Below are positions 4,713-50,105 of a stretch of DNA of 64,000 nt, one piece after another. The DNA is from Medicago truncatula. Lineage: Eukaryota > Streptophyta > Magnoliopsida > Fabales > Fabaceae. Under the pieces are notes generated by a model. It was not told where the DNA came from and ran no database searches. It was given only the letters and a program-made list of their open reading frames with translations. The DNA lies in NCBI RefSeq assembly GCF_003473485.1, contig NC_053048.1, positions 28,144,755 through 28,208,754 of the forward strand, written 5' to 3'. Position 1 is the first letter of the stretch; every line of letters begins with the position of its first letter. Both the position numbers and the translations under genes were made by a program.

Positions 4713-7113
4713 TAATGAGTTAGAGATACCTGCTCATCTTTTTGATCTTCAGCATAATATCCTCCTCACTACTTCTAATTCCAAGGTACAATAGAAATTA
4801 GAGATAAAAGTAAAAATTATATTGTTACTAAATTTGTCTTATTAAAATTTAGGCTTAATTGCTATTTTCGTCCCTTAACTAATTTTTTAGTATCGCTTTG
4901 GTCCCATAATTAATAAAAAGTCCGTTTAAGTCCTTTAAATATGTCTTCGTTACATAAATTGGTCCCTTCCGTTAATTTTATTAAAAAAAACGTTAACTCA
5001 AGCACACGTGTCATTTTTGCATTGGTTAGAATTTATATTCATCTTCTTCCAACTCACCTTCATCTTTTTCAACAAATCTTTTTTTTACCCAGAAGAATTT
5101 TTTTTTTTTTTACCTTTATCATATGAAATCCAAATCTAAACACTTTATTTTTTTCTCTTTTTCTTCATCTTCTTCCATCATCTTTTCATCATCATCAATA
5201 AAATTTCCAAGAAACACAGAAAATCAAAATAAAATAAAATTAAGTCTTATTCTTTAATTACTACACCATCAACACACACTTTTTCTTTATTGTATTTTCC
5301 CATCAAAACCATTTTGTAACAATAGGTAAACTTTCTCAATCACAACCATGCAATCTCATCATCAAGGTTATGAACACCAATTATATGTTTTGTTGTTGTT
5401 CTTGTCTTGAACCCCAATTTTCATTATTTGTTGATTTTTAACACAAACATGCAAACACAAAGCCAACATTAGCGTGCATCACAAAATCAACACACATCAC
5501 ACACAAATCTTCATTAACATTTTTTTCTTCAAATTTCAACCTTCTTCCATTCTTTATTTGTTGTTCCTCTTCTTTCTTCCTCTTTGTTCCTGTTCTCTTC
5601 TTCCAATCTTTCATAAAAAAACTCATTTTCGAATGCCAATCATTCATCATCAATAGCAATCCTTTCAAATTCCAATCTAAACCCATTTTTGGATCTAATC
5701 TAAATTCTTCCAAATCCCAATCTAAACCCATTTTGTTGTTGTTGTTGCTGTTGTGTTTTTGTTGGGGAGCAAATTTGGACCAGATTTATTGTGTTGTGTT
5801 GTTATTGCAACTTGATTTTCTTTTCCACAGATTGAACCAAAAAGAAGGAAATTTTCTGCAGATTTTTATTTCTGCAGATTTGAATGAACAACAAAACACA
5901 TCAAAAAAACTTTACATTTATCATATGAAATCCAAATCTAAACCCTTTATCATGGTGATGGGTTTAGATCAGAAAATGAGTTTTTGTGAAGATTGATGAT
6001 GATGATGAAGGGTTTAGATTGAATTTGAAAATGAATTTTTTTTTCTCCATTTTCTATTTCCATGCTTAAGAATCAATTTGTTTTCTTCCAATTTCAATTT
6101 CAAGGTTCGATTTTTTTTCTTCAGTTTTTTGTTTTGCTGGGTTTTTTTCATGAAGGTTGATGAGGAAGAAGATGAAGAAGTTGAATGAAGGTGATGACTT
6201 GTACAAACCCTAACAGTTTTTTAATAAAATTGACGGAAGGGACCAATTTATGTAACGGAGACATATTTAAAGGACTCAAACGGACTTTTTATTAATTATG
6301 GGACCAAAGCGATACCAAAAAATAAGTTAAGGGACAAAAATATCAATTCAGCCTAAAACTTAACAACAAAATTAGAAACAGATTTTTTGCCTTTTCCCGT
6401 TTCTAAATTTGCTACCATGTGGAGGATAGTAATTAGAGAGGGTTGCCATTAAAAGAAAAAGGTAATTAGAGAGGGTTAAACTAAAATAAATTAATTAATA
6501 CTAGGTAGAAAGATAAAATAACACTAGTTTTAAAATAATTTTTCTTTGCAAAATGTAATGTTTATTATTGTAAGAGGAAATAAATTTTTAAATTTTATTG
6601 TTCTAATCCAATCCATTTCTGTTTAAAACATAGAATAAAACCAATGAAGCTAACAAAAAGAAATGGAGAAATAAGAGTTTAGATGTAAACGTCAAGATGA
6701 TGACATACAGGAGCATAAAAGATCTAAGAAAAATAGGAATAAGACTTAAGTCTAGCAAGACACAAAGTCCAAGAGACATGGATTTCTCCGAAGGATGATT
6801 GGTTGCAAAACTGACATTACCTGAGATCGTTGTGGACGACACATCAGCTGCTACTTTCCTCAACTTAATAGCGTATGAGATGTGTCCAGATTTTAAGAAC
6901 GACTATGGATTTTGTTCTTTTGCAGCTTTCATGGACTCACTCATTGAGCATCCTGAAGAAGTGAAGCTATTGAGATCAAAAGGGATTTTGCTCAATTCCC
7001 TTGGGAGTGATGAGGAAATTGCCGATCTTTTCAAAATCATAGGTACTGACTTGATACCTAATACTGAAACATACTTTGAAGTAAGAGCCAAAATAGATGA
7101 ACATTACATGTGA
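4713..7113 (+). pseudogene. DUF247 unit 2, truncated pseudogene
   Basis: Only the last ~73 bases of exon 1 survive (4713-4785, ending CCAAG/GTACAA). The rest is replaced by an unrelated repeat block. The intron (4786-6633) carries a 1.5-kb MULE. Exon 2 starts at 6634 after AACATAG and is open until TGA at 6796-6798, where the intact units have TGG in SEGW. It then reads on in the same frame as a clear DUF247 segment (LNLIAYEMCPDF, LGSDEEIADLFKIIGTDL) and stops at 7111-7113 after the HYM residues. The C-terminal membrane helix is missing. A missing exon 1, an internal stop and a lost anchor make it non-functional. Conservation is otherwise high, so decay looks recent. Confidence 0.88.
4852..6353. 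mobile_element. Non-autonomous MULE in the intron of unit 2
   Basis: The termini are long inverted repeats beginning GGCTTAATTGCTATTTTCG on the left, with a matching right end finishing in CAATTCAGCC. The arms share GGTCCC and the ACTTTTTATTAATTATGGGACC block. The flanks are TAAAATTTA and TAAAACTTA, a 9-bp target duplication with one mismatch, as expected for Mutator-like elements. The inside is poor in sequence complexity, has no transposase, and contains only short open frames without recognisable domains. Confidence 0.85.
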
Positions 7114-9795: not shown

Positions 9796-9822
9796 ATGAA
9801 GGATGGCATCCCAAACTATTAA
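9796..9822 (+). other. Conserved overlapping upstream mini-ORF, unit 3
   Basis: Eight codons (MKDGIPNY) and a TAA overlap the main ATG at 9803 in another frame. The geometry is as in units 1, 4 and 5, with one substitution (AAT to AAG) in codon 2. Confidence 0.5.
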
Positions 9823-12800
9823 AGAAAAATTTGTGGAGCTACAAAAATCAATGCAAACACCCCAAAATTCACGACCGAAGATACAAAGGGTGGTTGACCG
9901 TTTCAGAAATAGAACAAATTTTGAGAAGCATTACTCACCCAAGTTTGTGTCATTAGGTCCTATCCATCATGACAATCCAAATCTGAAGAAAGGAGAGAAG
10001 TACAAACTTATGTGGGCAGCAAAATACATAGAAAACACCAGACACATTCCAGAGGATCTACACAAAAAGATTGCAGATAACATTGATGAACTGAAGGGTC
10101 ATTTTGACAACGATGTTTTAGCTTCAACCAGTTGGTCTCTTGAAGGCTTTGGTAGCCTTGAAGAAAAGCTATCGTGGATGTTGTTCGTGGATGGATGTTC
10201 TTTGCTTCATATCTTGGAGAGAGCCAAGCTTGATGAACCAGGGCAAATGAATATCAAGGTTGATCAACTTGTTCTTGTAATGATGGATGTGCTTTTGTTG
10301 GAGAATCAACTTCCTTATCAAGTACTCAAGCTATTGTGGAAAGATGAAGACCAGAGTGGATTGATAAAAAGCATGATGAATTTCCTCGCCTGTCATCATT
10401 GGGCCACACCAGATGAGTCACAGTCAGAGAAGAAGAAGGACATGGTTCCAAAAAGAAAAGCAGAAAGAGAGCATAGTTTATCAATACGAAATGAGTCACA
10501 GTTAGAGACACCCTTTCATCTTCTTGATCTTCAACGTAATATCATCCTCATTACATCTACAACCAAGGTACAACAGAAATATTAGAGAAAAAAATTAAAA
10601 TTTGTCACTAAATTATTTGTCTTTAAAACTTAATGCAAAATTAATAAAATATTTTTCCTTTTTCCGTTTCTAAATTTCATCACTATTTCAACTTTTTTTG
10701 TATTAGTTAAAGTTTAACTATCATTAATTTTCAACTTTTTGAGAAATAAACTGACATAATTTTTAGGCTTAAATATGTAAATCGTCCCTGTAATTTGGCG
10801 TGTTTTTGATTTTCGTCCCTGTATCTTTTTTTGTTTTAAAACAATCCCTATAAGTTAATAACTTTTTGATTTTCGTCCCTCCCGTCAACTTCCGTTACAA
10901 AAACGCACATGTGGCAAACGGACGATGACGTGGTAGTGCCTGACGTGGCAGACGATGCTGACGTGGAAAACTTATTGATGAGTCACACAGTGAGAGGGAC
11001 CAAAATCAAAAAACGAAATTTGTCGAAGGACCAAAGCCAAAAAAACAAAATTCGTGAAGGGACCAAAACCAAAACCAAAAAACGAAATTTGTAGATGAAC
11101 TTGACTATTTCCAGGACCAAAACCAAAAAACGAAATTTGTAGAGGGACCAAAACCAAAAAACGAGGAGACGAAAAATTCAAATTTAATTACATTTCTTCA
11201 TCTTTTTCCCACATCTTCTTCTTTATTACTATATATCATTGTCTTCATAAACTTCATCATCATCATCAACCAAACACAGAAATTCATCACTTCAAAATCC
11301 AAAAATCCATCAACTCAAAACAACAACAAACTCAATCCAACACATTCAATTATAACTTCTCTTTTATTTCTTCTCACAAACAACAAAATCAAATTAAACC
11401 AATATACCCACTGTTCAACGTGCAATCTAATTTCACACACTTTAAAATAAAACTTATCTCAATTCAACATTCCAACATATTTTTCAATTCTATTTATTAT
11501 CCCTCTAGAACTTCAAATGAAAAGAATATTCATATCAAACTTGAACCTTTCTCTTACAATCCAATTTCACACAACAATCTTCCAAATCAATCGGAAATAA
11601 AGAACACGACCCAAATGTTCGAAACAAAAATGATGATATTAGAGTTCAAAGAATTGACGAAGAAAGCATTTGGAGTGACCAAGAAACAGCAGAGATGCGA
11701 GATCAATGATGAGACGAGAGTTGGTAATGAAAAAAAATCATTCTTTAGGTTTTTCAATTTGAGAATTTTGTGAATTTTTTCAATATTGGGAATTCGAGCA
11801 TTCACAATGAGGATTTTGTTGTTATAATTTGATTTCGATATTATCAATAAAAGTTTAGTTGTGGATTTTAGTGTTGAGATGTCAATCTGACCATTGTCAA
11901 TGGGAATTTTGTTTGGGTTTGTGAGAAGTTGTCTATTGAGAGTGAGATGATGATTTTGAGTTTTTTTTTAATCTCTTTTCTGAGTATTTTTTCCTGGGTT
12001 TTTTGATGAATTTATGAAGACAATGATGAAGATGTTAAAGAGGTGGAAGGAAGAAGATGAAGAAAGCTATTTTTTCTCGCTTTTTGGTTTTGGTCCCTTT
12101 ACGAATTTTGTTTTTTTGGCTTTGGTCCCTCTACAAATTTCGTTTTTTGGTTTTGGTCCCTCTCACTGTGTGACTCATCAATAAGTTTGCCACGTCAGGC
12201 ACTGCCACGTCATCCTCCGTTTGCCACATGTGCGTTTTTGTAACGGAAGTTGACGGGAGGGACGAAAATCAAAAAGTTATTAACTTACAGGGATTGTTTT
12301 AAAACAAAAAAAGATACAGGGACGAAAACCAAAAACACGCCAAATTACAGGAACGATTTACATATTTAAGCCTAATTTTTATATTTGGTATATTATGAAC
12401 ATGTGCCCTTAGTGCGCATGTTATTATTTTCCATATTTTAATTACAAAGTGGAGATAGTGATTAGAGAGGGGTGTGCATAATAGTGATTAGAGGGTTAAA
12501 CTAAACTAAAATATTTAATACTAAGTATAAAGGATGAAATAACAACTGTTTTAAAATGTTTTTCTTTGCAAAATGTGATATTTTATTATTGCACGAGGAA
12601 TGAAATTTTGAAATTTTAATGTTATGATCCAATTCGTTTCTGTTTGAAACATAGATTAAAAACAATGAAGCTAACAAAGAGAATATAAGTAAGAAGAGTC
12701 GAGATATTGAAAAGGTCAAGATGATATACACGAACATAAAAGATCTAAAAGCATTAGGAATAAGACTTAAGTCAAGCAAGACACGAAGGCCAAGAGACAT

Positions 12801-13257
12801 AGATTTCTCCGAAGGATGGTTCACTGCTGAACTGACTCTTCCTGAGATCGTTGTGGACGACACTTCAGCCGCTACTTTCCTCAACCTGATTGCATATGAG
12901 ATGTGTCCAGATTTTAACAACGACTATGGGTTTTGTTCTTTTGCAGCTTTTATGTGCTCGCTTATCAACCATCCTGAAGATGTGAAGGTACTGAGATCAA
13001 AAGGGATTTTGCTCAATTCCCTTGGGAGTGATGAGGAAGTTGCCGAACTTTTCAATATCATAGGTTCTGACTTGGTACCGAACTCAGAAACATATTTTGA
13101 AGTTAAAGCCAAAATGAATGATCATTACAATAAATACAAGACTTGGATAGTGCAGGGTTATTACAGTTACTTCAGCATCGCTGCATTTATAGCCCTTGCT
13201 CTTACTTTCATTCAGACAGTGTTTACAGTTTACCCGGCTTTCAAAAAAGATGGTTAG
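9803..13257 (+). CDS. DUF247 (UPF0481) membrane protein, unit 3, intact
   Basis: The exons are 9803-10567 and 12655-13257, both phase 0 at the junction (donor ACCAAG/GTACAA, acceptor AACATAG/ATTAAA). They encode 455 residues. The N-terminal half carries KFVSLGPIHHDN, EKLSWMLFVDGCSLLHIL and VLLLENQLPYQVLKLLW. Exon 2 carries RDIDFSEGWF, LNLIAYEMCPDF, LGSDEEVAELFNIIGSDL and one C-terminal hydrophobic helix (about 430-447). The ATG at 9803 has A at -3 and G at +4. The intron is 2087 bases because a 1607-base MULE sits inside it; both splice sites still match the family. Function is unknown, as for most of the family. Antisense open frames over exon 2 (for example at 12501-12920) are shadows. Confidence 0.9.
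10766..12372. mobile_element. 1.6-kb non-autonomous MULE in the intron of unit 3
   Basis: It starts GGCTTAAATATGTAAATCG and ends CGATTTACATATTTAAGCC. A perfect 9-bp target duplication, TAATTTTTA, lies at 10757-10765 and 12373-12381. The arms are about 400 bases and contain CACGTGGCA-like motifs and tandem copies of a ~30-base unit (GGGACCAAAACCAAAAAACG). The middle (11290-12000) is unique, AT-rich and has no recognisable protein. The matching intron of unit 5 (near 49690) lacks the element and supplies the empty site. Confidence 0.92.
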
Positions 13258-27213: not shown

Positions 27214-27511
27214 TGTATACAAAGTATAGATGAGTGTTTTACGCGCCCTTCATCCTTTTTTTTTTTGGTCTAGCCCTTCATCCATTTTTGTTTTAAAGTA
27301 TTTTTCCGAAATTTTCCCTATTTTAATAAATATTGGTGGCGACTTCATTGTACTTCAAAAAATCCTCGAATTTTTAGACCGCTCCACCTACTTATAATAA
27401 TCCATGAGACTACTTTTTTCTTATTTAACCTTTGTGTTACCCCGGTTAAGGGAATTACTATTACGAGTAATTAATCATAATTCATAAAATATGCAACACT
27501 AATATAATAAA
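27214..27511. repeat. Repeat block, left half, split by the Pack-MULE
   Basis: Bases 27280-27500 match 3675-3870 (TTTTAAAGTATTTTTCC, CCTATTTTAATAAA, CGAATTTTTAGACCGCT). The block resumes after the element at 28858. Confidence 0.65.
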
Positions 27512-28857
27512 GGCTTAAATATGCTTTTCATCCCTGTAAATATAGACCATTTGATTTTTCATCTCTGAGTTTAGTAATCCTCCCATTTTGCCCCTGCAAT
27601 TACTAATCATTTGAAAATTCGTCCTAATTAAAAAAAATTGCTGAGGTGGAGGGTAATTAGATACGTGGCATCTGGCGAATGGTTTTTTTTCAGGACACGT
27701 CAGCAGAAGGGGAGGGCAATGACATTTTTGCCCTTAATGAATCTGGACTCATGCGCAATGACCATTTTACCCCCTGCCTCCATCTTTTCTTCCCAATGAA
27801 CCATGAGTTGACCAAATATCCAAAGCTCGTGACAACGCTACCGCCGCCGTTTCTCTCCTCTGTCAGTTTAATCGCACCGAAATGGAAGTGGAAGTCACCG
27901 CTTTGCTCTCTCCCTTCCACGTCATCACCCATCATCAACACAACCACTTCTTCGACGGCGCCGCCTCCGAACTCTCTTCTCGTCGAGCCACATTTCGTTT
28001 TCGATTCTACAATGATGATGAACGGTGTGTCGTTTCACTTAAAGCAAAAGGGGTTCTAGTCAACGGCGTGCGTCGTGTAGAGGAAGACGAGGAAGATTTG
28101 GATCCGAAGATTGGTCGAGATTCCGTTGATGAACTGGGGAAGTTGGGTTTTGTGGATTCGAGGATTATGGGGAGAGTGAAGGAGGAATTTGGGGTGGTGG
28201 GTAAAAATGGGTTTGTGGGATTAGGGAAGTTTAGGAATGTGAGGAATGTTTATGAATGGAAAGGTTTGAAATTGGAAGTTGATGAAACTGGTTTTGATTT
28301 TGGGACTTTGTTTGAGATTGAGTGTGAAAGCTCTGATCCTGAAGAAGCTAAACAGATTCTGGAGGAGTTTTTGAAGGAGAATGAAATTGATTATTCATAC
28401 TCTGTTGCTTCTAAATTCTCAATTTTTCGATCTGGGAAATTGCCATAGTGTGTCAATTTTCTATCATTTTTTGAGTTGAGTTGAATTAGTTTATAAGTTA
28501 TGCTTTTGTTGTTGATAATATATGAGTGTAAGATTTTCTGTTTGTTGTGTTGCCATATTGTGCAAGTTACTGTTAATCTCATGTTCCTACTTATATTGTT
28601 AATATATGAGTGTAAGATTTATTAATGGCAAAAATGTCATTGCCCCCCCCCCCCCCCCCCCTTCTGCTGACGTGTCCTGACAAAAAACCATTCGTCAGAT
28701 GCCACATATCTAATTACCCTCCACCTCAGCATTTTTTTTAATTAGGATGAATTTTCAAATGATTAGTAATTGCAGGGGTAAAATGGGAGGATTAGTAAGC
28801 TCAGGGATGAAAAATCAAATGGCCTATAATTACAGGGGTGAAAAGCATATTTAAGCC
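27512..28857. mobile_element. Pack-MULE carrying a TTM3-type gene
   Basis: It starts GGCTTAAATATGCTTTTC and ends GAAAAGCATATTTAAGCC. The perfect 9-bp duplication TATAATAAA lies at 27503-27511 and 28858-28866. The inverted arms are about 230 bases (27512-27744 and 28627-28857) and include ACACGTCAGCAGAAGG against CTTCTGCTGACGTGTCC. Between the arms is a host-gene copy with its own start and stop codon. The element has no transposase and would depend on one in trans, possibly from elements of the 41737-45455 type, though the end sequences differ. A C-run of about 22 bases at 28645-28662 marks the inner edge of the right arm. Confidence 0.93.
27882..28448 (+). CDS. TTM3-like: TTM3-like CYTH-domain protein, captured copy
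   Basis: One uninterrupted frame of 188 residues matches plant triphosphate tunnel metalloenzyme 3, a CYTH-superfamily enzyme that hydrolyses tripolyphosphate with a divalent metal. Visible landmarks are MEVEV at the start, FFD, SRRATFRFRF (tunnel arginines), CVVSLKAK, RRVEEDEE, RVKEEF, NVRNVYEW, KLEVDET, FEIECE and the family C-terminus SKFSIFRSGKLP. The usual length is about 205-215 residues. The missing residues lie immediately after MEVEV, where the family continues with the lysine of EXEXK and a helix. Here EVEV is followed directly by TALLSPFH. The metal/phosphate-binding lysine is therefore lost. Everything downstream stays in frame, so the frame may have been kept by selection or the copy may be young. 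No intron is seen. It lies wholly between the MULE arms, so any promoter is within the element. Confidence 0.88.
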   Translation: MEVEVTALLSPFHVITHHQHNHFFDGAASELSSRRATFRFRFYNDDERCVVSLKAKGVLVNGVRRVEEDEEDLDPKIGRDSVDELGKLGFVDSRIMGRVKEEFGVVGKNGFVGLGKFRNVRNVYEWKGLKLEVDETGFDFGTLFEIECESSDPEEAKQILEEFLKENEIDYSYSVASKFSIFRSGKLP

Positions 28858-29385
28858 TATAATAAAATTGCAACACATGTTATTATCTTATTCATTTTAC
28901 TTGCTCTAGAAACTTGAGTGTAAATAGTCTCAGAGTAACAAGTCCGTCTAGAGTATACCGTTTGCACCCATCACAAACAACTACATGTTGAATACAAGCA
29001 ATTTTCAGACTCCATCAGCCAACAACTTAGGGGCAAGGCTCCTATCCCTTTGCAGACTAGGTTCACCCCCCCCCCCCCCCCCCCCACAACCACACACACA
29101 CTTAATGCGTGAACATACCATAATTTACACCTTCCCATACTCTACTGAATCAGAGTCGGGTAGGCCAAATCTTAATCGTCCAAATTTGATCCAAGGCTAA
29201 TTGATCATGATTTTCACTCAGGCGTCCACTAAGGACAATTTTTCAGGTAAAGGCTTGAGAGCTAGAACCCAATTCCTCAATTTAAAAGTTTATACTCTCC
29301 TAACAAGTACACACAATTTCTAATCTTAAGTGTCGCTCAAGTCTTAACCACAACGCTTACTGGCTTGACCATAAAATAATTTCAA
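28858..29385. repeat. Repeat block, right half
   Basis: This continues the block shared with 4045-4600 (AATAAAATTGCAACACAT, GAGTATACCGTTTGCA, CAGAGTCGGGTAGGCCAA, CTAAGGACAATTTT). A run of about 19 C residues at 29067-29085 is a likely unstable tract. No gene is seen. Confidence 0.6.
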
Positions 29386-31956: not shown

Positions 31957-32556
31957 GGGTTAAATATGTTTTGATCCCTATAAATATGTCAGCTTTTCGT
32001 TTTAACCCCTATAAAAAATTTCTTCAATTTTTAGTCATCAAAAAAAATTTCATCTTCACTTTTGGTTTCTTCATTGAGGTAAACTCATATATAGAATTCA
32101 TATTTTTGAATAAATTTTTGCAGAATTTTTTTTTTTTTTTTTTGTGGTTGTCGAAGTTTGAAACTCAAACCTTGCATATATTATGCATTTTCCCTACCAA
32201 CTAAGTTAAGTTCAGGAGAACTGCAGAAAAATGTATTGTAATATAAGGATCTCTCCCAAAAAAATTTATAATTTTTTTAACCAAAACATGAATTAAATAT
32301 CAATTTTTATATTTTTTATGGTAAAAAATTCATATTTAATTTATGTTTTGTTAAAAAATTCTTATTTTTTGGAGTGATTTTTACAATATTCTATACATTT
32401 ATGCTCAATTAGATTAAGAAATACAAAAATTTACATAAAAATAGGGACCAAAATTGTTGGTTGAAAATTTTACGGGGACTAAAAGTTGAAGGAAAATTAA
32501 GAGCTACTGAAATAAAAAGTTGATATATTTATAGGGACCAAAAACATATTTAACCC
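31957..32556. mobile_element. MULE-type MITE, GGGTTAAATATG family
   Basis: The ends are GGGTTAAATATGTTTTGATCC and GGGACCAAAAACATATTTAACCC. The flanks TTAATTCAA and TTAATTTAA form a 9-bp target duplication with one mismatch. The palindromic centre matches that of 2472-2953. A SINE has inserted near the middle. Confidence 0.8.
32129..32222 (-). mobile_element. tRNA-derived SINE inside a MITE
   Basis: On the minus strand it reads GAACTTAACTTAGTTGGTAGG (A box) and GCAAGGTTTGAGTTTCAAACTTCGAC (degraded B box), then a poly(A) tail that appears here as a T-run at 32129-32143. It belongs to the same group as 13738-14018 and 51742-51828. Confidence 0.6.
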
Positions 32557-34675: not shown

Positions 34676-34977
34676 TAAATGTGTCTAGTACTCCCTCCAT
34701 CTCTAAATAATAGTACTTTAAGGGTTGTGCAAGATTATTAATTAAATGATTAATTGTGTTGATTTTGATTGTAAAATTAGTATCATTTAGTAAAATACCC
34801 TTATTAATTGCAGTTAGTGAAGTAGTTAAGTTGGATGAAATTCAATAAATGAGGGTATAATAAAGGAAAAAAATTAATAAATGTTCCATTGATAATGCAA
34901 GGTGACAATTAATTTTAGAAAAAGAAAAAATGGTAAAGAGACAAAAGGAGTAATTTAAAAAAAAAGTTTATATTTAA

Positions 34978-35287
34978 GGCTTAATTGCACTTTTGGACCC
35001 CTATCTTTTCAAAAGTTGCGGTTATGAACCCCTAACTAATTTAAATACAAAACAGCCCCCTATGTTTTGATTCTTTGGCAGTTTTGGACCCCCAGTCCAT
35101 TGTTGACTCGGTCAACGCTGACGTGGCACCCTAAGTGAGGTGCCACGTGTCAATTTTTTTTTTTTTTGCCTTGGGGGTCCAAAACTGCCAAAGAATCAAA
35201 ACATAGGGGCTGTTTTGTATTTAAATTAGTTAAGGGTCCATAACCGCAACTTTTGGAAAGATAGGGGTCCAAAAGTGCAAATAAGCC
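34978..35287. mobile_element. 310-bp MULE-type MITE
   Basis: The ends are GGCTTAATTGCACTTTTGG and CCAAAAGTGCAAATAAGCC. A perfect 9-bp duplication, TATATTTAA, lies at 34969-34977 and 35288-35296. The arms cover nearly the whole element, and a TGACGTGGCACC/GGTGCCACGTG palindrome lies near the middle. Confidence 0.92.
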
Positions 35288-35526
35288 TATATTTAAAAAC
35301 AAATTTCTAATAAAAATGTATTGACACGAAAGGACTAACTTTTATATAATGTTGCATTGGTATTCTAAAGACAATTATTTTGAGAAAGGAAAATGATAAA
35401 GAGACAAAATTGTGAGACAGAAGGAGTAATTTAAAAAAAAAAGTTTATATGTAAAGACAAATTTCTAATAAAAATGTATTGACATGAAAGGACTAACTTT
35501 TATACATGAAGTTCCAAAACAAAAAG

Positions 35527-35916: not shown

Positions 35917-36551
35917 AAAAATATTTGGGTGCCGACAAAAATCTTTCCTGACCTCATCATATGATGTGATCCAAAAAAAAATTCTGACCTCATATGTGAT
36001 CCAAAAGATAAAAAAAAAAGAAGCTGGTGGCCGAATTCAATGGCATTTAAAACGCGAGACAAAGGTGATTATTGTGCATTTATACCTAGGACCCCTCTTA
36101 TCAGCCTATTCAACGTTTAGAGAAAATTGTTGTTCACAAATAAATAGTATACGGCTTAAAAAGAGACACTAGTAAAATATCGAAATATCTCCTTGACAGT
36201 AAGTTAACCGACGGTAGTTAACTTTTGTAGAACTTCGACAGTTAATTACACGGAACTTCGGCAATTAACTGTTGCGGAATTTCAAACCTCATTTTTTTTC
36301 AAAATGAAATTAAATACAAATTAATTGTTTCTTCCTCTCATTTTCTCCATAACAAATAATCAATGAAATTAAATGCAAATTAAGTACTCCCTCCGTCCCT
36401 TAATGTAGGCACATATTGTCTTTTTCACATTTGAAATGTTATCAGTGTAATTAATGTGTTTGTTTTGTGTATTAATATTACCATATTGTCCTTTGTTTGT
36501 ATGTATATTAAATTTAACTTTTCATATTTGAAGACAAGTTAGTATTATTAA
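35917..36551. other. Intergenic, no gene seen
   Basis: AT-rich. A short run of TTAACCGACGGTAGTTAAC and AACTTCGGCAATTAACTGT near 36207-36270 is internally repetitive. TACTCCCTCCGTCCC near 36387 is typical of the edge of a plant MITE. No coding frame is convincing. Confidence 0.4.
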
Positions 36552-36910
36552 GGCCAAGTATCTCCCTGGGTCCTTTAAGTTTCATATTTGTTTCAGATAG
36601 ATCCTTTAAGTTTCTAAGTCTTCAGATAGTTCCTTTAAGTATGGAGTTTGTTTCGGATAGGTCCTTTAAGTTTCGAGTTTCTTTCAGATAAGTCATTTCT
36701 ACCAACCTCCGTTAAGCCAAAGTTGATTTGATAGAAATGACCTATCTGAAACAAACTCGTAACTTAAAAAACATATCTGAAACCTTAGAAATTTAAAGGA
36801 CATATTCGAAACAAACTCGAAACTTAAAGAATCTATCTGAAACTTTAGAAATTTAAAGGACCTATCTGAAACAAACGTTAAACTTAAAAGACCCAGAGAG
36901 GTATTTGGCC
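36552..36910. mobile_element. 359-bp MULE-type MITE
   Basis: The ends are GGCCAAGTATCTCCCTGGG and CCCAGAGAGGTATTTGGCC. A perfect 9-bp duplication, TATTATTAA, lies at 36543-36551 and 36911-36919. The inside is made of repeats of TCCTTTAAGTTT in one arm and its complement in the other. Confidence 0.92.
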
Positions 36911-37758
36911 TATTATTAATTAGGGGTATGTTTAGGAAAAAAATTAATAAATGCATCTAGTAATTTGAAAGTGTGTTTACATGTAGAGACAAAAATAAAG
37001 TCAAATGGAGGACTTAGATATATAGACGGATGGAGTATAAAAAAAGTAAATATGATTTTTTTTTGCATATTTGATTGATTTTTTGAAATAACATAATTAA
37101 GTATAACAAAAGTTTGTCTTTTTTGCTTATAATTTGAGACAGAAAATAAGATTTGTTGCTTATAATTTAAAACGGAAGGAGTTTATACGTAAAAATAATC
37201 GAACTATATATTAATAAAATTATAATATTAATTAATTTTATTTAATTTTTTGAAGAAAAATAAATTAAACTTTAATTATCAAACTACTGATCAATCTAAT
37301 AGAGTCTATATTAAACACCCTATCAATTAATTTTGAGCATTACTTTTCCAATGTCTTTCTTCGCGCGCCCTATTTTTTTTTCTTTCAAAATTACCCTCGG
37401 AGTATTCCAGATTATATAATCCGTAATTATGTTTTCTTTTGTTGAAGGGTGAAAAATGAGTAACGGATTTTTCCGAATTTTATAATCCGGAAACTTCAAA
37501 AAATAGGGTGCATTACATGATGTTTCCGGATTATATAATCCGGAAACCCCCTAAACACCTTTTTTCAAAATAAAACAGTTAGGATTACACAAATTCGAAA
37601 CATGTTTGTAACATGGATAGTCATTTTAGGGACAATATTAATCTTCCTAACTCTCATCCTTCTTACGGGACTCCGCCCCTCAAAATCCAAAATTCCATCG
37701 TTTAGACCCATTTTTCATTTTTTTTAATTTTTCATATTCTTAGAAAAATCCGAAAAAG

Positions 37759-37871
37759 GACCTATCCGAAACAAACTCCAAACTTAAAGGACCTATCTGA
37801 AATCTTAGAAACTTAAAGGATCTATTTGAAACAAACTCGAAACTTAAAGGACCCGGGGAGGTATTTGACCT
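37759..37871. mobile_element. Right-end fragment of the 36552-36910 MITE family
   Basis: It contains GGACCTATCCGAAACAAACTCC, AACTTAAAGGATCTAT and ends GGACCCGGGGAGGTATTTGACC, matching the right arm of the 36552-36910 element. The left arm is missing. Confidence 0.65.
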
Positions 37872-39588
37872 AAATTATATAAATATATGAATTTTCCTTT
37901 AAAGAAAAAAAAAACTAAATATATGGCTTTTATGCGGTGGTGAAAGCACCGACAATTTATGTGGTTATTACTGTATCGTATTTTGTATAAATATATGTCT
38001 CCAGTTAATCAACAATTTATTTTATCTTTAATTTAGTTTTATTATGATATTTGCTCTTGTATCTACTTTTTTCTAGTGAATCATGTCTCAGGATGAAAAA
38101 GTTGAAACCCATGTCTGATACTCCAACTTTAAGAGGACGATTAATGTTTTTTTTATTTATTGATGTGAATATGTTGGCGAAAATCCGTAATGTTGCACTT
38201 TTATTGAATTTCATTTTTGATGTATTGTGAAGGTAATGTCAAATTCTTGAATAATTTAGTTCAATTATGAATGATTATCAGGACCGTTCCTACGAATTTG
38301 GAGGCTCGGTTCTCTAAGTGAAAAGAGGCTCATAATAAAAAATAAAATTTTTAAAGAACAATATTCTATTTAAATTTTTTAAAAGATAAATACAAGGTGT
38401 CGTATATATGCGGTACACCCAAAAGTGAAAATCATTACCGTATGCATAAGGAATCTCAAACCACCCTCCCAAAAAACATCCACCTAACACTTAGTAGTAC
38501 TGTTGGGCTATAATTTTTTTTAAGCTCATACCTTAAGGAGGCCGAGCTCCCATTGTTATCAAAAACACGACTTAAGTCTCAAAATCCTGGTTCTTGCGAC
38601 TTTGCGTAACTTCAATGACTCAAATCCATAGCAAAGTCCCAAAAACAAACAAAATCCTATCAAAATCGCACAAAATCGTGAAATCCATTCAAAATCACAG
38701 GATTTTAATGGATTTTGTTCAATTTTTTTATAAGGGTTAATTTTTTACCCGGTTCATAAATTGACCCGCTTTGAATCCATGACCCGTTCTATAAATACTC
38801 GAAAGGCCAAAAAATTTCATTCCTTCACTTCCCCCACATTTATGTATATGTATTTTGTGGACTTTGAACTTCAGTCATTTAATGTTAAATATATGCAATT
38901 TATAACATATATTTAACATTATTTTTTTTTTGGTAGAATCTTCGATTTTGATTGCGATTTTATGAGTCTCGACTTTGCTATCCTACATCGATTCTACAAA
39001 AAAATTTGAGTAAAATCTTTTGATTTTGATTACAATTTTACGAGTCCCGATTTTGCTACTCCCTTTCGACTTGAAGTAAAGTTTTGATTTTGATATGGCC
39101 TATGCGACAGGCCCATTGAACTGTTTGCACACCCTAAGGTCCGGCTCTAATGATTATGTAATGATATGGCTTATGATTGAGTTTTAATTTGTCGTCGAAC
39201 CTGTTGTATGTTGATGCAAATTGTGTTTATAAATTACAGGTCATTTGTGTCCTTTGTATAGAGGTAATAAATACTACCTGCATGCATATCAGAACTCAAA
39301 GGTAATTGCCGTTGGAAGCGAGCGGGGTATCAATGAACAATTTCTTAAGTTAAAAGAGTAATTACTCTGCCAAAAAAAAAAAAAAAAGAGTAATTTTCTC
39401 TTGTTCTTATCCCTTTCACATGTGGTTCTCCTTTTCACCAAAGAGCCGTACCCTTCACTTATTAGATAAATGTGTGAGTGAGTGCATTGAAAAAACTACA
39501 GCACTATCACCGAGTCCATAATATATAATCCGCATTTTGATTTTCGTAACTTTGCAAGATCAATATCCCTCAACCATTAGTGTATTGA
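37872..39588. other. Upstream of unit 4: decayed repeats, no gene
   Basis: No gene. GGACCGTTCCTACGAATTTGGAGGC at 38281 and AAGGTCCGGCTCTAATG near 39135 are roughly inverted and may bound an old DNA element with further inserts (38561-39090 has inverted AAAATC.../...GATTTT segments). Only about the last 110 bases before the unit 4 start match the other DUF247 leaders; the distal promoter block shared by units 1, 3 and 5 is absent. Confidence 0.4.
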
Positions 39589-39615
39589 ATGAATGATGGC
39601 AGCCCAAACTCTTAA
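39589..39615 (+). other. Conserved overlapping upstream mini-ORF, unit 4
   Basis: Eight codons (MNDGSPNS) and a TAA overlap the main ATG at 39593. The geometry matches the other units, although this unit's promoter has diverged. Confidence 0.5.
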
Positions 39616-41466
39616 AGAAAAAATTGAGGAGCTACAAAAATCAAAGCAAACACCCCAAAATTCACCACCCAAGATACAAAGGGTGGCATATTACCGCAGA
39701 AAGATACCAAATTTGAGGAAGTACTACAAACCCAAGTTGGTGTCAATAGGTCCTATCCATCATGACAATAAAAATCTGAAGTTAGGAGAGAAGTACAAGC
39801 TTAAGTGGGCAGCAGAATACATAGAAAACACTCCACTTAATCCAGAAAACACTGCACTTCATGCAGAAAACACTGCACTTAATGCAGAAAACTTTGCACT
39901 TAAAGCAGAGAAACTATACAAAAAGATTGATGAAGACATCAATAATTTGAAGGGTCATTTTAGCGAGGATGTTTTAACTTTAACTAAAAAGTCTCTTGAA
40001 GGCTTTGGTACCCTTGAAGAAAAGCTGTCGTTGATGTTGTTCGTGGATGGATGTTCTTTGCTACATATCTTGGAGAATGCCAGACGTAATAACCCAGGGA
40101 AAATGAATATTAAGGTTGATCAACTTTTTCTTGTGATGGTGGATGTGGTTTTGTTGGAAAATCAACTTCCTTATGAAGTACTCAAGCTATTGTGGAAAAA
40201 CGAGAATGAGAGTGAATTGATACAAAGCATGACGGATTTCTTCAAATATAATCATTGGGCACAGTCAGAGAAGGAGAAGGACATGGGTCCAAAGAAAAAC
40301 GGAGAAGGAGAATATAGTGTATCAATACCATTACCAAATGAGTCACCCACTCATCTTCTTGATCATCTGCGTAAACTCAACCTCACTACACCCAAGTCCA
40401 AGGTACAAGTTAACAATAAAAAGCACTAGAAAAGATTGAAACAACAATAGCAATTACAGACAAAAAAATATTTGATCACTAAATTTTGTCTCTAACACTT
40501 AAGGGCAGAATTTGAAACAGTGATTATCTTGTTCCGTTTTTATATTTTCATCATAATTTCAACTTTTTTTTTTATTAGTTTAAGTCTATCTACTGTTATC
40601 ATAAGTAGTTCAACTTTTTATTAGAAAATTTGTGTATTCAATAAATTTGAAATTAAAATATTTTTGGAATAATTTCTTAATTTCTTAATTTTGGAACGGG
40701 TCTCTTCTAGCTTAACCAAGGTCCTGGGTTCGAATCCAGCCTTGGGCATGCAGCAGTGTTAAAACTCTTAGGGAGAGCCTGCCGCCCATTTGGGTCCCAC
40801 AATGTTCGAGAGATTAGTCTCCGCAGTTGCGCGCGGAGGATACCCGGTTTACACCAAAAAAGCAATGAAGCTAAATCCAAAGAATGCAGTCAGAAGAAAA
40901 ATGAGTCCAAGCCGATTACATACAGGGGCATAGAAGATCTAAGAGCAGTAGGAATAAGTCTTAAGGCAAGCTTTACACCAAAGCCAACAGACATAGATTT
41001 CTCTGCAGGATGGTTTTCTGCGAAACTGACTATTCCTAGGATCCCAGTGAACAACTTTACAGCCGCTATTTTCCTCAACCTGGTGGCATATGAGATGTGT
41101 CCAGATTTTGACAACGACTATCAGATTTGTTCTTATGTAGCTCTCATGGACTCGCTCATCGACCATCCTGAAGATGTGAAGGTACTGAGATCAAAAAGGA
41201 TTTTGTCCACCTTATGGAGTGATGAGGAAGTTGCCAACCTTTTCAATATCATAGGTACCGACCTGGTAGCTAACATCGACAAATATTTTTATGTCCAAGA
41301 TAAATTATGTGAGCATTACTTTAATAAATACAAGAGTTGGATAGCGTTGGGTTTTCGCACTTACTTCAACAATCCTTGGACCGTTATTGCATTCCTTGTT
41401 GCATTTACTGCCCTTGCTCTTACTTTCATTCAGACATGGTTTACGGTTCACCCGGCTAGCAAATAA
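39593..41466 (+). CDS. DUF247 (UPF0481) membrane protein, unit 4, SINE at exon 2 acceptor
   Basis: Exon 1 is 39593-40402 (270 codons, donor TCCAAG/GTACAA). Exon 2 ends at 41466. DUF247 motifs are complete: KLVSIGPIHHDN, LMLFVDGCSLLHIL, VVLLENQLPYEVLKLLW, LNLVAYEMCPDF, SDEEVANLFNIIGTDL and a C-terminal hydrophobic helix. Two features set it apart. First, 39824-39907 is four copies of a 21-base unit, giving heptads of the form ENTALxA between YI and EKLYKKI. Second, a SINE has replaced the usual AACATAG acceptor. The best phase-0 acceptor left is TCTCTTCTAG/CTT (exon from 40711), which would read through the SINE without a stop and give about 521 residues. Another acceptor, before 40813, would give about 487. 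Without one of these the gene is broken. The coding sequence is otherwise intact. Confidence 0.8.
39824..39907 (+). repeat. Four 21-bp coding repeats in unit 4
   Basis: The unit is GAAAACACTGCACTTAATGCA with small changes, in frame, giving ENTPLNP, ENTALHA, ENTALNA and ENFALKA. Other units have a single ENTGLIP-type segment here. Confidence 0.9.
40690..40862 (+). mobile_element. tRNA-derived SINE at the intron/exon 2 junction of unit 4
   Basis: A TAGCTTAACCAAGG stretch resembles an A box and GGGTTCGAATCCAGCC is a clear B box. The body has GGGAGAGCCTGCCGCCCATT, GTCTCCGCAGTTGCGCGCGG and ATACCCGGTTTACACC, then AAAAAA. GC content is far above the surroundings. Family membership (Au-like) is suspected but unproven. 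It ends two bases before the AATGAAGCTAAA start of conserved exon 2 sequence. Confidence 0.8.
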
Positions 41467-41736: not shown

Positions 41737-44700
41737 GAGCACTGCTAGCATCAGTCGCTTCCTCAGTTGCTTTTCAACACTTTCCCGTACAAATCGCCAC
41801 GTCATCTTATTTTTCAACGCCTTTACTTGTTACCGGATGAATAGGTTGAGTTGCTAACTGCTTCAATTGCATTTATTTTTTTTATTTTATTTCACTACTT
41901 TTTTTTTGTTTTTTTCCGTTGAAGAATTCAACACCACTTTTCACCTCATATAAAGACAAAAAAATCATTTTAATTCTTTCCCACCTTAACGAGGAAAAAT
42001 CTGAAACACCTAGCTACCATTTTATTTTCTCCACACTCATAATCAATACCCAAAAAAAATTAAAACCAACCACTTTTTAGTGGTCCACGTCATACACAGT
42101 CTAATACTGTTAAAATAAGATTTAACAGGGTACTCTATTCTTGTTAAAAAAAAACAGGGTACTCAATCATAAACACACACCTTCTATCATATATTACATG
42201 CATATAACAGTATACCTCACGAACAAAAATTGGAGCCACTCTAGTAGATTTTGATTGACCATCATCTGCTACAGCAGAATTAAAAAATCCAACAAGAGTT
42301 CAAAGGATGATAAATATGTTTTCCATTTTATTTTAACGAGATAAATATGCACAGCCAAAATAGTCATAAATCATAATAGGATAACAAATGTAATATAGGA
42401 TCCAATCCTTTAACACAACAAAACTATAAAGTTAAACCAATGAAAACATCTTTTAGTCTAAAATGAAACATAAACAAGCTTATATAAACTTAGGAGAGTA
42501 TTGTTGAGTAAAACTAAAAATTTAAAATAAATATCTTAAAGATTCTTCAACTCCTTGAACTCTACTGTTTTGCCTGACAAATGAGCAGAAAATGGGAGAT
42601 AATTAACAGGGTACTCAAAGTGCAGCCACTTAATATGAAATCTATAAAGTCACCTACATAATATGAACTTTTATATCATTGATGTTGATGCAGCCACAAC
42701 TTCATCAGTGACAAATATTGCTTCTTTTTCAACGATTGCAGCCTTCATTTCACATAATCACAGAACAAAAATCACAACAATCAGAAATCATGTTAAATAA
42801 TAATATGTTAAGAAGTTTGATAAAATAATAAATTCCAACCTTTTTCACGCTACCAGTAGATTTTCTCTTTCGACCTCTTTCAATGCCGCTCTTTATTCTT
42901 TTCGGTGCCCCTTTTGTTTTTGAATCTTGAGGATCAAGTAGTTTCTTGTCAAGCAAAGTGCTCTTCCTGCTATTTTCTTGGCTATTTTTTAAGGATCGGT
43001 TAAGGAATGCACATTGTTTCAAGGCCTCTTCCAGTGCATGACATGCAAAGTTATAACTCTCATTGGTTAATGATCCTTCCTCCAACAATTGAGAGGCCTT
43101 TGGATACAAACGATCATATCTCTCCTTCTTCGAACAAATATCTTCATTAACTTTTCTTTTATGATGCCGACTTCTGATATCCTTTGTCCATCTTTTCAAT
43201 ATGTAGTGTGATGGGACAGCAAAGATACCACTATATTGGAGGGCCATCAATGAATGTCTACAAAGATACCCATTATACTCAAACAAACGACATATGCAAG
43301 AAATTTTCTCTTTCGATGCATCCCACTCTACAACAAATTCTTCCCTATTTCCAAAGTCGAATATTGTAAAAGAGGTGAGCTGACTATCTTCATTCCTTTT
43401 CTTGACATGACATCCAGATAATCCCATAATTTCAACTTGGAACTTTTTGAATACTTCATGCGTATAAATCATTGACATTTGCTTCTCAAAAGGTGATGGA
43501 GTTTTAAGAACTGGTTGTTTATGCCATGTATTAAAATCAGCATGCATTTCTGCTTCTTCCCTATCTTGCAAAGCAACTTCATATTTTTCAACAAATTCTT
43601 TCAATGTAGTTTTCTTGCCTACATATTTGTCAAAAAAAGAGTTGATGCTCTCTAATCTTTGAGTTGTTGACATGCCAGCGAAAAAGGTATCTTTCATGTA
43701 AACAGGAACCCAATGTTTACGTTCTTCATATAAAGACTGAATCCACCCATCCTCTGAGTTTGATAGTTGAAATTTCTCTACCATTTCTGCCCAATTAACT
43801 TCAAACTGTTGTATTGACAGAGACTTGTATATGCATGCGTCAAAATATCCCATGAAATCTTCATTATTTCTTATTACATGACCAAGCTTCTCAGGCACCT
43901 TTCTAAGTATATGCCAAAGACAAAAACGATGTCGGGTATTTGGAAATACCTCTTCAATAGCCACTTTCATTGCTCTGTCTTGGTAAGTTATCATTGGATT
44001 TGGAGGTTTCCCACATATTGCCTTAAGCCATGTTTTCATCAACCATTCGAAACTCTCAGAGGTCTCATTTGCTAGTAATGCACAACCGATTAATCTTGAC
44101 TGAAAGTGATTATTCACACCAATGAATGGAGCAAATGGTATTTTATATTTGTTTGTGATATATGTAGTATCAAAGGAAATCACATCTCCAAACACTTTAT
44201 AATCATCTCTACCCTTTCCATCCACCCAAAATACATTTTTTACATGACCATCATCATCCAAATCAAATGCATAAAAGAATCTTGAATTTTCTTCTTGCAT
44301 ACGCATAAAATACTCCAGCATTGCATTTGCATCTCCTGATTCTAAATTCAAACAACGGTCCTTATCTAAATAATTTCTAACATCTTTCTCCAAGCAACCA
44401 ACTTTCTCATATCCTCCGTGTTGTTTGGCCATTGTGGCAAAGATTTTGCTTGTTCTCACTCCAACATGTTGCAAAGTTTCAATACAATTCTGTTGAGCTT
44501 TATTGATTGTTCTATGGCAAGGAAAATAATGTGCATATGTTGGAAAAAGTTCATGATTGTGATCTTTGATCAAGCCATGGACCACCCATTTTCCATCACA
44601 TCTTCTTCTAATATGTAAGCCAGCCTCACATTCCACCTTCAAACAAGGACGTGGATTTTGTGCGGTCGACTCTCGTTTTTTCCCATATCTTGTGCAAGCA

Positions 44701-45455
44701 TATTTCACATCAATAAATTGTCTAGAAATTTTTGAACGGCGATTGCTTTTAATGGATACACCAAATCCGACACATTTAGCATATCGAACATAGAAAGAAT
44801 AAGCATCTTCCTGTGACTCAAATTCCATTCCAAGAGAAGGTTGTTGAAAATTGTTAGCATCTAAATCACCAACATATGAATCACTATTGACGGTCTCATT
44901 TATAACATGCTCTTCGTTTTCATCAATGGGTTCCATTAATTCCTAATATATGTATAAAAATAGTTACAACTAATTATCAATACATGTTGAACAAACATAA
45001 AAAACTCAATAAAATATTTTCAAAGACAAAGTGATAGTACCAAATTCATGTTTTTTAATACAGGGGAATCACATGCATTGACAATGAGGAGAACAAAAGT
45101 GTACCTTAAAAAGTGAAATACTCTTACTCTTTTGTTGGAATTGTGAGAGAAAAACACCAAGAAGTGACAGAGTGGTGGTGCTTATCCTTTGGGGACTTTC
45201 TGCATGAAACAGTGGCAGAATGGCAGAGCTTCTGATAGTTGAAACAACGATGTGCTCGATAAGGAAAGAGATATTCTTAGGCGCGGGAAAATGCCTTGTT
45301 GTTTGGGATATCCATTAAAAAAATAAAAACAATTAAACGTGTTGATTTTGGTGAACCGGTAACCAAGTCAAAAGTTAAAAGAATAGTATGACGTGGACCA
45401 CTAAAAGAGGGAGTGCTTAACGAGAGTGTCAAAGCGCCTGATGCTAGCATTACTC
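41737..45455. mobile_element. Complete MULE encoding a FAR1/MURA-type transposase
   Basis: The ends GAGCACTGCTAGCATCAGTC and GAGTAATGCTAGCATCAGGC (right end read inward) are inverted. The 9-bp duplication TATTCAATA is perfect (41728-41736 and 45456-45464). The uninterrupted target is visible in the 3' flank of unit 1 (GTTATTTAATATTGTG). The arms also share TTTTTAGTGGTCCACGTCAT near 42075 and its complement near 45390. The element is 3719 bases and holds one long intact gene on the minus strand. Intact ends, a perfect duplication and an open transposase frame point to recent movement. Confidence 0.93.
42671..44936 (-). CDS. FAR1-related (MURA-type) transposase, intact
   Basis: The main frame runs 44936 to 42750 (728 codons). 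A better gene model splices after K699 (AAAAAG/GTTGGA, 42840) to ATGAAG/GCTGCA at 42742 and ends at 42671, giving 722 residues. Parts in order: an acidic N-terminus; a FAR1 DNA-binding domain (about 40-130, with YACTRYGKK and HNHEL); a MULE transposase core with D256 in ISFDTTY, D320 in TYQDRAMK and E429 in RLESINSFF; CLWHI near 339-343; a SWIM zinc finger, CICR...YLCRH (547-561); and a basic C-terminus with RGRKRK. FAR1/FHY3 light-signalling factors descend from such transposases. Here the gene lies inside intact terminal repeats, so it is more likely an active transposase than a domesticated factor. Its 5' region to 45455 should hold its promoter. Confidence 0.88.
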
Positions 45456-45984: not shown

Positions 45985-46490
45985 GACTTTAATATGTGTT
46001 TAGTCCCTACAAATAGAAGTCATTTAAACAATGGTCATGTATTCGTTAATCCTTACAATTTGCCCTCCCAAAATTTAATCACTTAAAAATTGGTCTCTCA
46101 ACCCAGTTAATCAATGCCACGTCACTGATTAGCTGACGTGTCACATATGATTTATCAGAGTTGGTATGAACGGACAAAAACACCCTTGAGCTTCCCAGAC
46201 AAATGCAAAAAGACCATTATACCCTCTATATTCATCTTCTGAAAATCTTCATCCATTACTTTTCCTTCCAATTCCTTTTCTGATTCCAATTCCTTCTCTT
46301 AAAAGTGAGTTTACTAATGTCACTAATTTGCATCAGCCTTCCATTGATAAAATCGAACCAGATCTTTAAATTTGCAATGTATCAAAGCTTCAACTTTGTG
46401 TTTGAATTGGAGAAGGTTGCATCGGGTTCGTGGTGGTGATGACAACGGAGATATGTTTGTTCTTCGACGTGGTGTTGGGGGAAACAGAGA

Positions 46491-46575
46491 GAGAGGGACG
46501 AAGTTGATTATCAAACTAGTAACGACCGTCGAGATCTCCGTTCTCGTTACCGCGCCGTCCAGAACATGATTCACG
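46491..46575 (+). pseudogene. Exon fragment, possibly from an NSE4-type SMC5/6 subunit
   Basis: The frame gives ERDEVDYQTSNDRRDLRSRY followed by RAVQNMIH, then a donor-like ACG/GTAGGA. The RRxLRSRYxAVxNMI pattern resembles the N-terminal region of plant NSE4 kleisin subunits, judged from memory. Only one exon is present and no continuation was found downstream, so it is not a working gene. Its left edge is uncertain. Confidence 0.4.
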
Positions 46576-46794
46576 GTAGGAATTCAATTTTATTCAACGC
46601 TCATTCTGTTTTCTAATTCTGTTTCGAGTTTCATATTATTTATTTTTTTGCATGTTTTTACTTCTGTAGAGAATCCAGAAATGAGAAAACGACTTCAAAT
46701 TTTGTGTTATTTGTGTCTTTGGTGGTGGTGAAATGGAAAGAGAGGGAGAGGAAGAAGAATGAATTGGAATTTCATGGGTGGGTGTGTGGTGGGT

Positions 46795-46927
46795 TTAGAA
46801 TTCCAAAAAGATTGAAAGTGAATAAAAGAATGGGATTGGATTGGAAGAAGAAAATTGAAGATGAAAATGGTTGTTGAAGTTGACGATATGCAGCAGAGAA
46901 AGAACCTCCTTCCATTGGTGTAGTAGG

Positions 46928-46995
<68 letters not shown>

Positions 46996-47155
46996 ATGGT
47001 CCAGCTGGTATGCGATGTGGTTGGGGTGTTGAAAATGTACCCCTTGGTGCTGCTGCTTGCATAGAATACCCATAATAATATGGTGAACCCATAGTTGAAG
47101 ATAATGGTCCATAAAGTTGTTGATATTATTGTGCTTGCTGAATCTGTGGGTTATG
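46795..47155 (-). pseudogene. C-terminal fragment of an RRM (RBM24/38-like) protein
   Basis: Read on the minus strand, the sequence after an acceptor-like TTTCAG gives QIQQAQ, a TAA, then YQQLYGPLSSTMGSPYYYGY, SMQAAAPRGTFSTPQPHRIP and AGPSY. A (TA)n tract then interrupts before YYPTTPMEGGSFSAAY. Gly/Tyr/Pro-rich tails with PHRIPAGPSY are known from plant single-RRM proteins of the RBM24/38 type. The RRM itself is absent. The stop and the expanded microsatellite show decay. Confidence 0.55.
46931..46993. repeat. (TA)n microsatellite
   Basis: About 31 TA units interrupt the captured RRM-protein fragment and create artificial Tyr-Ile open frames on the minus strand. Confidence 0.95.
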
Positions 47156-47730
47156 ATTTCAGTTTACTGATTCAATTTGATTTCAGTAACTGGATTTAAT
47201 TTCAGAAATGTTTTGCTTGAAGCTTTTGTTTGTCATGACAATTGATTGGGATTTGGTGAGTTTGCAATTTGTTTCTCTGGATATTTAGAAACTATGGTAA
47301 AGTTGTGTTGCTGGGAGAATAACAAGGGGGAGTTGCAGGTGAATCTGCAAGGAAACGAAGATGAAGCCATGGGTATTTTGGTCTTTTCAAAAGTTATATC
47401 AGCTAATCAGTGACGTGGCACTGATTAATTGGATTGAGGGACTAATTTTTAAGTGATTAAATTTTGGGAGGGCAAATTGCTAGGATTAACAACGAATACA
47501 TGGACCATTTTTTAAATAACTTCTATTTGCAGGGAGGGATTAAACACATATTAAAACCTTATATATTTGTTCGATTCAATTTGATCGACGGAGGATGTGT
47601 ATGTTCATTTTTTCCAATCACCAGTTCCATATTGATGTTAATATTTAAGATTATTTTTGGTTACATAATATTTAAAATTTAATAACATCAACTACCACTG
47701 CTTCATACTAATTCATTTTATCATGAATTT

Positions 47731-48835: not shown

Positions 48836-49594
48836 AGAAAAATTTGTGGAACTACAAAAATCAAAGCAAATATCCCAAAATTCAAGACCGAAGATACAAA
48901 GGGTGCTAAAGTCTCTCAGAAATAGAAAAAACTTTGAGAAGCATTACTCACCCAAGTGTGTGTCAATAGGTCCTATTCATCATCAGAACACAAATCTGAT
49001 ATTAGCAGAGTAGTACAAACTTATGTGGGCAGCAAAATACATAGAAAACACCGGACACATTCCAGAGGATCTACACAAAAAGATTGCTGATAACATTGAT
49101 GAACTGAAGGGTCATTTTGACGACGATGTTTTAGCTTCAACCAGATGGTCTCTTGCAGGCTTTCGTAGCCTTGAAGAAAAGCTGTCGTGGATGTTGTTCG
49201 TGGATGGATGTTCTTTGCTGTATATCTTGGAGAAAGCGGATCTTAATAAACCATGGCACATGAATATTAGGGTTGATCAACTGGTTCTTGTGATGATGGA
49301 TGTGCTTTTGTTGGAGAATCAACTTCCTTATCAAGTACTCAAGCTATTGTGGACAGATGAAGACGAGAGTGGATTGATAGAAAGCATGATGAATTTCGTC
49401 GACGGTCATCATTGGGCCACACCAGATGAGTCCCAGTCAAAGACACCCTTTCATCTTCTTGATCGTCGGCGTAATATCATCCTCATTACATCTACAACCA
49501 AGGTACAACAGAAATATTAGAGAAAAAATTAAAATTTGTCACTAAATTATTTGTCTTTAAAACTTAATGCAAAATTAATAAAATATTTTTCCTT

Positions 49595-50105
49595 TTTCCG
49601 TTTCTAAATTTCATCACTATTTCAACTTTTTTTGTATTAGTTAAAGTTTAACTATTATTAATTTTCAACTTTTTGAGAAATAAACTGACATAATTTCTAT
49701 TTTTGGTATATTATGAACATGTGCCCTTAGTGCACATGTTAGTATTTTTCATATTTTAATTACAAAGTGGAGGATAGTGATTAGAGAGGGGTGTGCATAT
49801 ATAATAGTGATTAGAGGGTTAAACTGAAATAAAATAATTAATACTACGTAGAAAAGATAAAATAACAATTGTTTTAAATTATTTTTTTCTTTGCAAAATG
49901 TGGTATTTTATTACTGTAAGACGAATGAAATTTTAAAATTTTATTGTTATAATCCAATCCATTTCTGTTTAAAACATAGATTAAAAACTATGAAGCTAAC
50001 AAAGAGAATTGGAGAATGAAGACGATATACATGAACATAAAAGATCTAAAAGCACTAGGAATAAGACTTAAGTCAAGCAAGATACGAAGGCCAAGAGACA
50101 TAAAT
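49595..50105 (+). repeat. Internal duplication of intron plus start of exon 2, unit 5
   Basis: The intron segment from TTTCCGTTTCTAAATTTCATCAC (49595) and the first ~127 bases of exon 2 (from AACATAG/ATTAAAAACTATGAAGC, 49980) are repeated in the following 50104-50800. The join falls inside RDI(D/N)F at AATTTCCGTTTC. There exon GATTTCTCCG and intron TTTTTCCGTTTC share short identity, suggesting unequal exchange. Confidence 0.75.

Follow-up and report, generated by a model that had tools for sequence, protein, structure and literature searches.

Does the nearly whole gene that lies inside a short DNA transposon of Medicago truncatula represent a new working gene, or a passenger that has started to decay? 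This question is raised by a CYTH-domain reading frame at positions 27882-28448 (plus strand) of the window, a term used here for the whole stretch of 64,000 nucleotides that was analysed. In an earlier note on this DNA, the frame had been described as the nearly full-length TTM3 cargo of a Pack-MULE. The reading preferred here, to which a probability of roughly 0.8 is assigned, is that a Pack-MULE carries a copy of a gene of a lineage named TTM3-B, that this copy lost 39 bp in frame, and that it most likely evolves by neutral drift, as a decaying passenger rather than as a new working gene.

Structure and classification of the element

The element occupies positions 27512-28857 (1,346 bp) with exact boundaries, and GGCTTAAATATGCT is read inwards from each of its ends (27512 and 28857). 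Directly outside both ends stands a perfect 9-bp target-site duplication, TATAATAAA, with the left copy at 27503-27511 and an identical right copy at 28858-28866; a shared 9-mer at the spacing of this element occurs at only 2 of the 62,636 positions of the window, the TATAATAAA pair included. The left terminal inverted repeat (233 bp, 27512-27744, plus strand) and the right one (243 bp, 28615-28857, minus strand, containing 19 consecutive C at 28643-28661) share 89.3% identity in an alignment of 243 columns. Its 232 ungapped columns show 14 substitutions, of which 10 are transitions and 4 are transversions (K2P 0.063); gaps occur in 12 columns, 11 of which fall within a C/G run. These values bear out the MULE arms of about 230 bp and the perfect duplication that had been claimed for this locus. 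Between the arms, a captured 5' segment of 137 bp (27745-27881, plus strand, 50% GC) precedes the CYTH frame, and a captured 3' segment of 166 bp (28449-28614, plus strand, 27% GC) extends from the stop codon of the cargo to the right arm; in this 3' segment and at the edge of the right arm, a stretch of 25 nt occurs twice in direct orientation (28512-28536 and 28596-28620). Since one inverted pair of arms and one perfect 9-bp duplication enclose the cargo, the element was inserted as a single piece.

A Pfam scan of all six frames of at least 40 aa that overlap the element detected CYTH in one of them and a transposase in none; on the reverse strand of the 3' segment, a sub-threshold match to a Pfam virus family (19.3 bits against a cut-off of 30) is taken as a chance match in AT-rich sequence. 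The duplication is of the length, about 9 bp, that is typical of MULEs. Long terminal inverted repeats, such a duplication, the lack of a transposase match and a cargo derived from a host gene and not from a transposon are thus all found together, and the element is a Pack-MULE, that is, a non-autonomous element of MULE type with a TTM3 cargo, as the earlier note had proposed. With regard to a parental locus, an intact TTM3 protein named M. truncatula (P0002) exists, but the lineage nearest to the cargo is TTM3-B.

Pack-MULEs of rice and other plants are described as sharing inverted repeats, a short duplication, the lack of a transposase and a cargo of host-gene origin (passages of PMC8903248 and PMC13317346), and the present element differs from them in that its cargo is one near-complete gene in a single frame. 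According to the latter text, captured fragments are mostly non-functional, yet many are expressed and bear signs of selection (PMC13317346). A hAT element with a captured histone H3 gene in Pseudocercospora fijiensis is likewise a DNA transposon that carries a housekeeping gene, although it belongs to another superfamily and kingdom; as reported in the available text, the H3 copies there are inactive while the original was retained, inactivation proceeds via RIP, and of 784 H3-like copies only 11 approach full length (PMC6710886). In the literature searched, no description of a Pack-MULE with CYTH cargo was found, and the titles listed for triphosphate tunnel metalloenzymes together with Medicago concern other subjects; this instance may be undescribed, though its kind is known. 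It leaves the general picture of Pack-MULEs unchanged, and it offers a clean, well-bounded case in which a short DNA transposon holds a host gene almost entire and in a single frame.

Identity and lineage of the cargo

The cargo frame encodes 188 aa from ATG to TAG, contains no internal stop and matches the CYTH family PF01928 (E 1.6e-15, 57.9 bits against a cut-off of 23.2), so that the earlier claim of a CYTH gene with its own start and stop codon holds. Its residues 4-188 align with AtTTM3 (5a5y) at E 2.7e-59, placing it in the family of the plant TTM3 tripolyphosphatases (PDB 5a5y, 3v85), while a scan against NCBIfam gave only cyaB, far below the cut-off. Of 589 candidates in a search with the cargo, 480 proteins reached E<=1e-3, and the best 120 of these were considered. 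Among these 120, the nearest is a protein of 201 aa from a jgi/ena source (P0001), with 93% identity; the intact P0002, also of 201 aa, shows 87%, and a second protein named M. truncatula, P0032 (173 aa), shows 94% over its aligned part. The latter two presumably match two different M. truncatula chromosomes. In assembled genome and viral contigs, 591 and 102 stretches, respectively, matched a sequence pattern, and none of them encoded a relative. It had been cautioned that, if this locus were the single TTM3 gene of the genome, the arms would flank a native gene rather than a capture; for this Medicago window the answer goes against such a single native TTM3, which is rejected because the intact P0002 exists, besides P0032.

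A tree of 26 proteins resolves two lineages, for which the names A and B are coined here. The window protein pairs with P0032 (98/88), P0001 joins both (100/99), and the three fall together with a further protein and two from Trifolium (94/95), whereas P0002 stands apart with P0003, P0007 and P0008 (97/95) in lineage A. Judged from these protein sequences, the cargo belongs to the second lineage, TTM3-B, together with P0032 and P0001, and an origin from the canonical TTM3-A was rejected on the same grouping. Raw distances, at 24 differences in 188 residues from the canonical P0002 and 27 in 188 from Trifolium, do not by themselves separate A from Trifolium. The sister protein P0001 shares derived residues exclusively with the Trifolium-type set at 11 sites, 8 of which lie in residues 1-90, and exclusively with the Medicago A set at four sites, all in residues 91-201; this mosaic, based on small counts, would fit an ancient duplication after which the two lineages exchanged sequence. 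Both P0001 (B) and P0003 (A) are reported from five contigs, the longest of 73,870 bases for each, and these shared contig figures suggest that both genes lie side by side in one plant, possibly in tandem.

In Arabidopsis, AtTTM3 shares one mRNA with CDC26, an essential cell-cycle gene (as stated in PMC6973038). Upstream of the window copy a CDC26 frame is not recognised: in the three frames overlapping the 137-bp segment, Pfam yielded no family besides that of the cargo, a scan that a start-less fragment could escape. By analogy with Arabidopsis, capture may have parted TTM3 from CDC26.

Damage at the active site and the question of constraint

The cargo differs from the intact TTM3 proteins at its N-terminus. 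In an alignment of the window frame with 60 relatives, 59 of which have letters at the site concerned (P0032 was left out), 13 residues are missing from the frame where MEVE meets VTALL (188 against 201 aa), which amounts to an in-frame deletion of 39 bp with its junction at 27891-27899 (plus strand). The deleted columns are highly conserved in the relatives, namely K6 and L9 in 59/59, L7 in 58/59 and R8 in 55/59. Consequently the frame reads MEVEVT instead of MEVEVK, ExExT in place of the ExExK that is described as the hallmark of CYTH enzymes (PMC8233210), and strand beta-1 is absent from the structural model. The description as nearly full-length is accordingly accurate in terms of length, but with the 13 residues went the lysine of ExExK and strand beta-1, both of which AtTTM3 has. 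Glu-2 and Glu-4 of AtTTM3 are reported to belong to a metal-coordinating acidic patch, and mutating either strongly reduces hydrolysis (PMC4641920); the letters of both survive in the window frame, and in the predicted structure the strand that positions them is lost despite these retained letters. The equivalents of AtTTM3 Arg-52, Lys-76, Glu-90, Glu-169 and Glu-171 are all retained, as read by eye from the alignment.

AlphaFold2 (AF2) modelled the window frame with a pLDDT of 84.0 and a pTM of 0.73, beginning with a short helix and ending with residues 177-188 below 50, and modelled the intact sister P0001 with a pLDDT of 94.6, a pTM of 0.87 and beta-1 at residues 2-9. Foldseek ranked AtTTM3 entries first for both models; against four such entries, the window model reached a TMq of 0.70-0.72 with an rmsd of 4.5-5.1 A and the P0001 model a TMq of 0.95-0.97 with an rmsd of 1.5-1.7 A. 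Because the alignment behind the model of the deleted form consisted of intact proteins, the drop in confidence reflects the missing strand and is no gauge of real stability.

Beyond the deletion, the window protein differs from P0001 at 12 of 188 aligned residues. At four positions (L38F, C81S, P85L and G116K) the window residue is found in none of the 59 other aligned proteins, and P0001 likewise has two such residues; L38F and C81S are common to the window and to P0032, which stands outside the 59. At columns conserved under equal thresholds, averaged changes amount to 3.2 in 67.6 columns for the window (3 missing), 7.1 in 61.4 for P0032 (9 missing), 1.1 in 70.6 for P0001 and 1.2 in 70.5 for a background of 60 proteins. 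Counts of 6/79 for the window, 8/69 for P0032 and 3/82 for P0001 were obtained at a threshold laxer than that of the background, so they are not on the same footing as its mean of 1.2. Three or more changes occur in 9 of the 60 background proteins, with a maximum of 6, and the 27 rows taken as legume range from 0 to 4. Since the window value of about three is reached by these nine proteins, the substitutions lend weak support to relaxed constraint. P0032 is more deviant than the window, and its 28-residue gap may reflect a faulty gene model.

The open frame itself was set against a neutral simulation, in which, under settings of the author's choice, the frame stayed open in 27% of runs at 0.02 substitutions per site, in 15% at 0.03 and in 4% at 0.05. 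An open frame is thus unsurprising in a young neutral copy and, taken alone, is weak evidence of function. The sequence of events that would best account for the locus begins with the acquisition, by a non-autonomous Mutator-like element, of a TTM3-B copy comprising 5' flank, coding frame and 3' flank. This unit would have been inserted by a transposase acting in trans, with creation of the 9-bp duplication, and either before or after insertion the 39-bp loss would have deprived the phosphate tunnel of the ExExK lysine and beta-1. Any protein made from the copy would have little or no tripolyphosphatase activity, and the copy would since have drifted neutrally, being young enough that no stop has arisen. 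With the damage readable directly at the active site, the locus provides a tidy case for the rate at which captured genes decay.

Competing explanations and the surrounding sequence

The strongest rival to a decaying passenger, though an unlikely one, is a young new gene whose transcribed copy yields a shorter CYTH protein that has taken on a different role, such as binding polyphosphate without hydrolysing it. Several of the features given above count against decay and would suit such a gene, namely the open frame of 188 aa, a deletion that keeps the frame, the other active-site residues that are retained, and few changes at conserved columns under equal thresholds, that is, a weak substitution signal; in addition, the CYTH ATG has purines at -3 and +4. 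It is also reported that AtTTM1 and TTM2 are without ExExK, yet AtTTM2 has pyrophosphatase activity (a statement in PMC8233210). Against this stand the missing beta-1, the lower model confidence with its C-terminus below 50, and the fair share of young neutral copies that is expected to keep an open frame. Moreover, an out-of-frame reading frame of 126 aa without Pfam match (27679-28059, plus strand) starts in the left arm, contains several upstream ATGs and overlaps the CYTH start, so that translation of the CYTH frame from a transcript begun in the left arm would probably be inefficient. The earlier suggestion of a possible expression of the cargo as a new gene thus finds no backing, given this overlap and the loss of the ExExK lysine and beta-1.

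It is more doubtful still that TTM3-B as a whole is a transposon-borne family of the Trifolieae, captured before the split of Medicago and Trifolium and freed from its CDC26 partner, and that it stayed intact in some species (P0001 and the Trifolium TTM3-like proteins) and in Medicago was moved and trimmed to a non-catalytic form that retains some role. Highly improbable, too, is an action of siRNAs on TTM3, and on CDC26 as its mRNA partner in Arabidopsis (PMC6973038), arising from the inverted arms or from read-through transcripts. Maize genes captured by transposable elements, Pack-MULEs included, are reported as reservoirs of siRNAs that act on donor genes (PMC13317346), but Rfam gave no match at E<=0.1 in 27400-28960, and long perfect matches to the canonical P0002 are unlikely given the 24 residue differences in 188. 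Just as slight is the chance that a native TTM3-B gene came to lie between two MULE ends by accident: no intact TTM3-B protein named M. truncatula is present in either of two listings of 120 matches (rows that are clusters showing one name each), which favours it weakly, but an intact B-lineage protein exists elsewhere (P0001), and two independent MULE insertions were rejected, as each would bring its own duplication and one shared, perfect 9-bp pair brackets arms that are 89% alike.

Apart from the TTM3 Pack-MULE, the window contains further mobile and repeated sequences. Among nine elements compared within the window, only that at 31957-32556 (600 bp) has ends resembling those of the TTM3 element, at 85-88% over 32-33 columns; its flanks TTAATTCAA and TTAATTTAA match at 8 of 9 positions, and on these sequence likenesses it is probably a related short MULE without cargo. 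At 10766-12372 lies a second MULE-like element (1,607 bp), whose arms, each about 300 bp long, are identical at 282 of 309 aligned columns. It is flanked by a perfect 9-bp duplication, TAATTTTTA, contains a long open stretch of low complexity, and separates the N-terminal half of a DUF247 gene (9803-10585) from the C-terminal half (12721-13257). This gene is part of a DUF247 cluster (260-1003, 9803-13257, 39593-41466 and 49023-51257), in which the four first-half frames all end near profile position 212-215 and a second-half frame follows in three of the four.

At E<=1e-3, blastn found no similarity between the TTM3 element and three inverted-repeat pairs (4834-6371, 36543-37879 and 46045-47490), whose arms of 92-155 nt lie 1.09-1.26 kb apart. 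A further inverted repeat, at 34977-35288, encloses a match to the precursor of MIR2619, presumably a Medicago family, at 35050-35215 on both strands (177.5 and 122.8 bits); this match and the pairing of the cargo with P0032 indicate Medicago as the host. Finally, an open frame of 728 aa on the minus strand (42750-44936), whose identities of 94% to a jgi protein and 74% to Trifolium are compatible with a Medicago origin, combines FAR1, MULE and SWIM domains in the manner of FAR1-related-sequence genes.
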